Origin: a virus
Reading direction: 5' to 3' (one strand)
DNA: 55,533 bases
Virus record (IMG/VR): IMGVR_UViG_3300008448_000102
Location: 1-55,533 of that record
This document shows, in pieces, positions 52,007 through 53,080 of the stretch; position 1 is the first letter of the stretch; each line of letters begins with the position of its first letter. A program made the translations under genes and the position numbers. The notes below the pieces were generated by a model. It saw nothing but the letters and a program-made list of their open reading frames with translations, did no database searches and was not told the DNA's origin.

Positions 52007-53080
52007 TCAGTATTTCAATACCTCCGACTCGCAGAACCACTCGTCACACGAACCGCAATGGTAGTCCATGAACCCGTCGTGCTTTAGTGTGTGGTAGCAG
52101 TTGACGCACATCGCCTCCTGCTCCATCCTGCTTTTGAGTTGCTCGTGTTCGTACATTAACTCGTCGGTGTAGGTGTGCGATGCGGCACTCCTTGCCTCCT
52201 GCTGATACGCCGACACCCACGACCCCTTGAATCCCACGCTCTGATTGTATGACTTGTGGAGCCTCTCTCCACTTGGTATCTCCGTTCCGTTGAAGTACAC
52301 CCAACAATTCTTGACCTTGCCATCAATCAGTATTGGAATCCTCTTGCGTGTGTACCAATTCGGGTGACCCTCGAGTGCGTCCAAGTCTGCCATTACCTCG
52401 TTGCTTACCTTGAACACATCAACGCTGACCCATTCACCTACACCCTTCTTGTCGATGAGGTACGGAAGACCCTTGATGATAAGCGGATACTTGTCGAATG
52501 TCTCACCATTGCCGATGAACTTAGAGTCGGATAGGAACCTGTTGTAGTTCCCGTTGCCACGCTTGAGTGTGCCGTACACGGCCACCAAGTTCGGCTCGAA
52601 CACGTTATCCTTCGAGTACCACACGCCGTCATGCTGTGTCCAAAGGTGCTTGTTGTAGATTTGGTATGAGCGGTTGCGTGTGTTGATGGTGACGAACCTG
52701 CATGGGTATTTCTCAAGTTCGTTGCTCCACTTACGGCGTGGTACATCTCCGATGCTGTTAGCCAACACCTTGGTGTCGCTCTCCTCCGCGTTGCCGAGCA
52801 TTGGAATTGTTCCGTTCATCATAAGCCACTCGCTCTTGTTGCTACCGCATTGGAATGGGTGCGTGTTCTCTATGCCAATCTTGCCAATTGTGGCGTAGCG
52901 GAAGTGTGCAATGAATGGCCTGTCCGTGAGCAGAACCTTGTACTCCTTGGACTTGTGGTATGTGACCTCGAACGTGTCGAGCCACATGATGCCGAGTCCG
53001 TGCGGGTTCATGCGTGATGATGTCTTTGCTACCTCTGTTGATAGTTTCTTTCCTTCCTTCTTGATGATGATGATACACAT
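52007..53080 (-). CDS. Class II glutamine amidotransferase-GGCT-zinc ribbon fusion (357 aa)
   Basis: Three domains. Residues 1-165: Ntn-type class II glutamine amidotransferase, with Cys2 as nucleophile once Met1 is removed (MCIIIIKK), then NPHGLGIMW, IAHFRYATIGK, ENTHPF, LMMNGTIP (Asn89-Gly90, oxyanion) and ESDTKVLA. Residues about 166-275: gamma-glutamylcyclotransferase, with VAVYGTLKRG (YGTL 169-172), FDKYPLIIKGLPYL and DLDALEGHPNWYTRKRIPI (Glu237, catalytic). Residues about 320-350: zinc ribbon with CVNC and CGSC. These folds are known to travel with phage peptide- or metabolite-modifying (amidoligase) systems. No ligase is seen beside it here. The substrate is unknown. Palindromes lie on both sides (copies 7 and 8). 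Confidence 0.85.
   Translation of the reverse strand: MCIIIIKKEGKKLSTEVAKTSSRMNPHGLGIMWLDTFEVTYHKSKEYKVLLTDRPFIAHFRYATIGKIGIENTHPFQCGSNKSEWLMMNGTIPMLGNAEESDTKVLANSIGDVPRRKWSNELEKYPCRFVTINTRNRSYQIYNKHLWTQHDGVWYSKDNVFEPNLVAVYGTLKRGNGNYNRFLSDSKFIGNGETFDKYPLIIKGLPYLIDKKGVGEWVSVDVFKVSNEVMADLDALEGHPNWYTRKRIPILIDGKVKNCWVYFNGTEIPSGERLHKSYNQSVGFKGSWVSAYQQEARSAASHTYTDELMYEHEQLKSRMEQEAMCVNCYHTLKHDGFMDYHCGSCDEWFCESEVLKY

Follow-up and report, generated by a model that had tools for sequence, protein, structure and literature searches.

Why should a phage carry an amidotransferase, a cyclotransferase and a ribbon in one polypeptide, and on what would such a protein act? The question is raised by a gene near one end of a linear IMG/VR virus record from an uncultured bacterial virus (55,533 bases; this whole stretch is called the window). 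The original prediction had placed three domains in a single 357-aa protein and named no strand. The ORF was confirmed on the minus strand with an ATG start, and the reading of three domains was borne out: Cys2, the YGTL motif (residues 169–172), Glu237 and the two-CxxC ribbon were all present as claimed. The features of the locus are collected in Table 1. No description of this fusion was found in the papers searched.

Table 1. Features at and around the fusion gene (window coordinates; residue numbers are those of the fusion protein).
Feature	Position	Strand	Basis or remark
GATase II–GGACT–ribbon fusion gene	52007..53080, stop included	-	357 aa; 206 IMG/VR relatives
N-terminal Ntn/class-II glutamine amidotransferase domain, residues 1–162	52595..53080	-	Z score and invariant residues
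Nucleophile Cys2 codon	53075-53077	-	
GGACT-type gamma-glutamylamine cyclotransferase domain, residues 163–284	52229..52594	-	PF06094 and Z 18.2
Catalytic Glu237 codon	52370-52372	-	
Helical linker, residues 285–320	52121..52228	-	variable, poorly conserved; pLDDT 48–64 (low confidence)
C-terminal four-Cys ribbon, residues 321–357	52010..52120	-	Cys325, 328, 342, 345
Dyad GTGTCTTCAAAGACAC in gene direction	53105..53120	-	about 25 bp upstream of the fusion start codon
Dyad GTGTCCTCGAGGACAC	51980..51995		downstream of the fusion gene, upstream of the next gene; same dyad family
Contig break; partner GS-fold amidoligase expected beyond it, before the groEL end of the contig	55533		distances in relatives

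When the fusion protein was compared with Pfam, the GGACT family (PF06094) matched residues 166–266 with an E value of 1.4e-21 and 77.7 bits, the cut-off being 22.8. A sequence search of the PDB led to mouse and human GGACT, and Glu237 aligned with the catalytic Glu82 of the human enzyme. The AlphaFold model, built from a 61-sequence alignment, had a mean pLDDT of 88.5 and a pTM of 0.66, so the relative placement of the domains is uncertain. On structure comparison, human GGACT (3jub) superposed on 120 residues with Z 18.2, an rmsd of 2.1 and 34% identity. Since the scores for GGCT (Z 11.9) and ChaC2 (Z 10.0) were lower, GGACT-type is the most fitting name for the domain. The hallmarks of the GGACT/AIG2 family (profile match, YGTL lid and catalytic Glu) were all found. 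The GGCT of the original prediction was thus a cyclotransferase, as stated, but of the gamma-glutamylamine type rather than a generic GGCT. Human and mouse GGACT (3jub, 1vkb) share its fold and catalytic Glu; they are stand-alone enzymes, whereas the domain in the window is fused. Their substrate is epsilon-(gamma-glutamyl)lysine.

For the N-terminal domain, the Pfam matches to class-II amidotransferases spanned residues 49–96 and fell below threshold (GATase_4, 21 bits against a gathering score of 23; GATase_6, 18.6 against 27). The modelled structure resembled EgtC (Z 12.4) and the GlmS glutaminase (Z 12.2), and the class-II hallmarks were present, viz. a Cys directly after the initiator Met, the glutamine-binding Arg, Asn-Gly and Asp. 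Judged by structure and residues, the domain is a divergent class-II (Ntn) amidotransferase despite the sub-threshold Pfam scores. As EgtC is the best match, the domain might act as an EgtC-like gamma-glutamyl-amide hydrolase instead of an ammonia donor, making the fusion a pure two-way gamma-glutamyl eraser, possibly directed against host defence molecules. We regard this as highly improbable: EgtC and GlmS are tied in score, the domain retains the glutamine-binding Arg61 and the Asn-Gly pair of glutaminases, and a ligase gene always lies nearby, as described below.

Searching IMG/VR with the single sequence returned one relative, while a profile of four sequences returned 206, of which 80 were retrieved. 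This number of relatives rules out a chance or artefactual ORF. The alignment used for residue conservation had 83 members, forming 63 clusters at 90% identity and 37 at 70%. Cys2 was present in all 82 relatives that cover the position (one row is truncated), and Arg61, Asn89, Gly90, Asp102, YGTL and Glu237 in 83 of 83. Loss of Cys2 or Glu237 in most homologues, which would have spoken against the original prediction, was therefore not observed. The ribbon cysteines were conserved in all 80 members that bear a ribbon; it is missing in the C75C1 lineage, L090 and L094 (three of the 83 aligned members are ribbonless). Two named phages carry the fusion, namely Caudoviricetes ctfjg026 (MW202828; 55% identity over 280 residues) and C75C1 (OQ984151; 42.5% over 270 residues). 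As to the host of the group, there is a hint only: the contig that carries one relative was binned with a Cytophagales MAG.

In locus L001, an amidoligase-like ORF upstream of the fusion was spotted by eye; it is homologous (47% identity) to a hypothetical protein adjoining the fusion in MW202828. This partner gene (about 300 aa) was found in 75 of the 83 loci scanned, and the eight loci without it all have less than 2.5 kb of upstream sequence, C75C1 excepted. Where at least 6.5 kb of upstream sequence was available, the gene was present in 58 of 59 loci, the remaining one being C75C1, which has a recognised Amidoligase_2. Within the clade of the window the count at this length was 58 of 58, and among near-complete contigs (at least 58 kb) it was 34 of 34. 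The partner is encoded on the same strand as the fusion, a median of 1.9 kb upstream, usually with several small genes between the two. A search for the same fusion and for neighbouring ligases had been suggested as a check of the original prediction, and it gave 206 fusion relatives, and the ligase in each of the 58 of this clade with at least 6.5 kb upstream. Common descent partly accounts for this co-retention in one phage clade.

The association bears on a salvage role, in which both domains would degrade glutamine and gamma-glutamyl compounds to feed the nitrogen and glutamyl pools of phage metabolism. Such a role was proposed for Phage-ZRK32, where the same gene types were termed auxiliary metabolic genes (PMC10945688), and each domain taken in isolation is catabolic. 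Because the fusion constantly has an ATP-using ligase in its vicinity, specific bond formation is favoured over salvage, which we consider very unlikely.

The partner gene is absent from the window, which ends in a contig break at 55533. In 59 loci of relatives, groEL and the fusion are separated by no less than 3617 bp, and the start of the ligase is never closer to groEL than 1212 bp. Of the stretch between groEL and the fusion, 3078 bp are present in the window, split over its two ends (625 + 2453 bp). As this is below the 3617 bp minimum, the ligase gene of the window was most likely lost in the contig break.

To what family does the partner belong? No Pfam family matched it consistently. 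No PF12224 match was listed for 56 partner members, and plain Pfam and PF12224 searches of the genomes of the clade were empty. A weak pointer to an amidoligase came from PHROGs (phrog_2443, 0.0024). The AlphaFold (AF2) model of the partner had a pLDDT of 93.5, and all 16 Foldseek matches with E of 0.001 or below were glutamine synthetases or gamma-glutamylmethylamide synthetase. All 50 VIA-align matches listed had the glutamine-synthetase/gamma-glutamyl-ligase fold, the best Z being a modest 9.1, to YbdK. When the partner profile was aligned by hhalign with eight phage Amidoligase_2 proteins, a probability of 96% was obtained (E 4.8e-9); for control families the values were 0.1–0.3% with the partner and no more than 1.1% with the amidoligases. 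The profile also matched the Amidoligase_2-type genes of the C75C1 lineage (E 0.0018). By hhalign, the partner showed no match to COOH-NH2 ligase type 2 (1%).

The partner carries ExE, D-S-G-E, CG-H and EFR motifs in the order seen in Amidoligase_2, with E78, E80, D101, S103, G105, E107, C147, H150, E221 and R223 invariant; the second His of CGxHxH is not conserved. From the modelled fold and the profiles, the partner is a predicted carboxylate-amine ligase of the glutamine-synthetase type, related to Amidoligase_2. It was recognised because profile–profile comparison and structure were used, plain Pfam and PF12224 searches having shown nothing. The family pointed out here is widespread in uncultured phages and goes unrecognised by Pfam.

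A second lineage could be compared. Twelve IMG/VR relatives of C75C1 (L106–L117; one cut at a contig end) have a GATase-GGACT fusion like that of the window but without the ribbon. An Amidoligase_2-type gene lies upstream in 11 of the 13 loci, C75C1 included, and the other two hold 1.2–1.5 kb of upstream sequence. In contrast to the window's clade, the ligase of C75C1 is a recognised Amidoligase_2 (PF12224, 3.5e-30). As the ribbonless lineage also has a ligase, the fusion and the GS-fold ligase are the constant part, and the ribbon is an addition of one lineage. The analysis shows the folds, the intact active sites and, for both lineages, a constant linkage to a ligase of the GS fold.

The closest systems otherwise are MW202828 and about 200 IMG/VR contigs, which have the full architecture with ribbon, the same ligase family and groEL, but only 48–65% identity to the protein of the window; the ligase of MW202828 has about 230 extra N-terminal residues. 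MEP401/402 and Acinetobacter vB_AciJM_313 encode a related GATase domain (28–32% identity) directly after an amidoligase-type gene, but without the GGACT fusion.

A 'peptidoglycan modification' cassette is common to RIO-1, phiEco32, PA11, LUZ24 and PaP3 and was hypothesised to prevent superinfection (PMC5498523). The prediction was repeated later, with the observation that gene position, domain organisation and gene number vary (PMC11945000). Phages described with the cassette include phiEco32, RIO-1, LUZ24, PaP3, tf and PSA-HP1 (PMC5498523, PMC3890496, PMC11945000). Separate genes for a COOH-NH2 ligase, an Ntn-type/class-II amidotransferase, an ATP-grasp protein and a cyclotransferase were found in tf, UFV-P2, Vibrio 1.293.O and Slicky01. 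The first three have a separate amidoligase gene too; none is assigned in Slicky01. Unfused counterparts of the fusion occur in Pseudomonas tf, Vibrio 1.293.O and Pseudoalteromonas Slicky01.

The likeness lies in the joint presence of a GS-fold amidoligase, a class-II amidotransferase and an AIG2/GGACT cyclotransferase in the early region of a podovirus. This core (amidoligase, GATase II and GGCT) is complete in the relatives, the ligase being off-contig in the window. Unlike the known cassette, the clade of the window has the amidotransferase and GGACT in one chain with a ribbon added, and a ligase from a family outside Pfam. Neither a RimK-type ATP-grasp nor a COOH-NH2 ligase type 2 (PF14395) was found in 35 records of the clade, while each model detected its target in three of three positive-control phages. 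An ATP-grasp as third partner was thereby rejected for these records, as searched with the RimK model. The absence of both from the 35 records leads us to describe the locus as a reduced, fused form of the known cassette. The original prediction had linked such folds with ATP-grasp or GS-like amidoligases; the GS-fold ligase was there in every sufficiently long relative, but the RimK-type ATP-grasp was not.

What would the pair do? As the fusion is always accompanied in relatives by a bond-forming ligase, the two probably rewrite peptide-type bonds. We hold it probable, with fair confidence, that fusion and ligase form a two-gene system that makes and trims gamma-glutamyl-type amide bonds, most likely on host cell-wall peptides; the reactions, a substrate molecule common to both proteins, and the target are what we infer. 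The ligase would activate a carboxylate at the expense of ATP and couple it to an amine. The Ntn domain, with Cys1 exposed on removal of Met, would hydrolyse glutamine, releasing ammonia, or a gamma-glutamyl amide, and the GGACT domain would cyclise a gamma-glutamyl-amine to 5-oxoproline and free amine. The fused protein would thus supply or process the glutamyl side, and ammonia or a glutamyl group may, as originally suggested, be handled in one place. The ribbon, gained in one lineage, probably serves for docking.

The target would be the peptide part of cytosolic host cell-wall precursors, and an altered wall would favour the infecting phage, e.g. through superinfection exclusion; the same has been predicted for the unfused cassettes. 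This is the weakest step; the host cell wall is the most likely target by analogy with the published prediction for related cassettes. The targets listed originally (peptide tag, DNA base modification, glutathione or a nucleotide-like second messenger) had omitted cell-wall peptide modification, the standing hypothesis for the unfused cassette (PMC5498523, PMC11945000). The cell-wall prediction for phage amidoligase cassettes has been carried unchanged since 2009. In the present clade the cassette comes down to two genes, whose active sites are fully conserved, and hence the prediction becomes much easier to test in vitro.

The same enzymes could put a gamma-glutamyl group on a target chosen by the phage (small molecule, peptide or protein) and take it off again, as in butirosin biosynthesis, the ligase adding gamma-Glu and GGACT later removing it as 5-oxoproline. 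The closest match of the GGACT domain is indeed a gamma-glutamylamine cyclotransferase, phage tf has a GGCT with a BtrG-like annotation, and a ligase lies close to a cyclotransferase, with no adjacent amidotransferase, in Bacillus 022DV001 and Geobacillus GR1. However, this scheme leaves the invariant amidotransferase domain without an evident function, and the conserved neighbours included no recognisable carrier or biosynthetic gene; we think it unlikely. It is quite unlikely that the system is not a cell-wall modifier but a minimal, self-contained one that writes and erases gamma-glutamyl or isopeptide bonds on one particular macromolecule of phage or host (protein or nucleic acid), to which the ribbon would steer the fused enzyme.

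Some neighbouring genes may be recorded. A protein of about 214 aa (L001 4693-5334; found in 70 loci) stops just short of the ligase gene (by 2 nt in L001) and is conserved nearly as well as the ligase; it is a candidate regulator or substrate. The phage encodes a GroEL (window 626-2233), conserved across the clade on the strand opposite to the cassette in 59 loci, and a GroES-like gene (about 85 aa) lies beside groEL in 54 loci. A 99-aa protein is encoded at window 50436-50735, adjoining genes for a Sak-like annealing protein and a putative exonuclease; its counterpart in L018 matches the DnaA C-terminal helix-turn-helix (9.8e-9). The largest gene of the genome is a single ORF of 3493 aa at window 31013-41494.

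Scans for promoters and terminators gave nothing beyond chance level. The two dyads flanking the fusion gene, reported originally as possibly setting it apart for regulation, are real, but they do not single it out. The window has nine GTGTC-N6-GACAC sites against 0.13 expected. Further examples lie at 48111-48126 and 54885-54900, and others fall within genes (1281, in groEL; 10822; 34043; 43553), so that the set is not purely intergenic. Across the loci examined, 491 sites with exactly a 6-nt core were counted, the core being almost always of this length. Such recurrence rules out a gene-specific switch. The dyad just upstream of the fusion folds well as RNA (z -4 to -5). A dyad precedes 50 of 83 fusion starts at 16–143 bp (median 22), with the core reading TTCAAA 37 times and TTTGAA twice in gene direction. 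The dyads are an oriented leader element found generally in this phage group, and we propose that they serve as a leader hairpin or as the operator of a putative phage regulator. In MW202828 (L003), the GTGTC-N6-GACAC dyad precedes many early genes.
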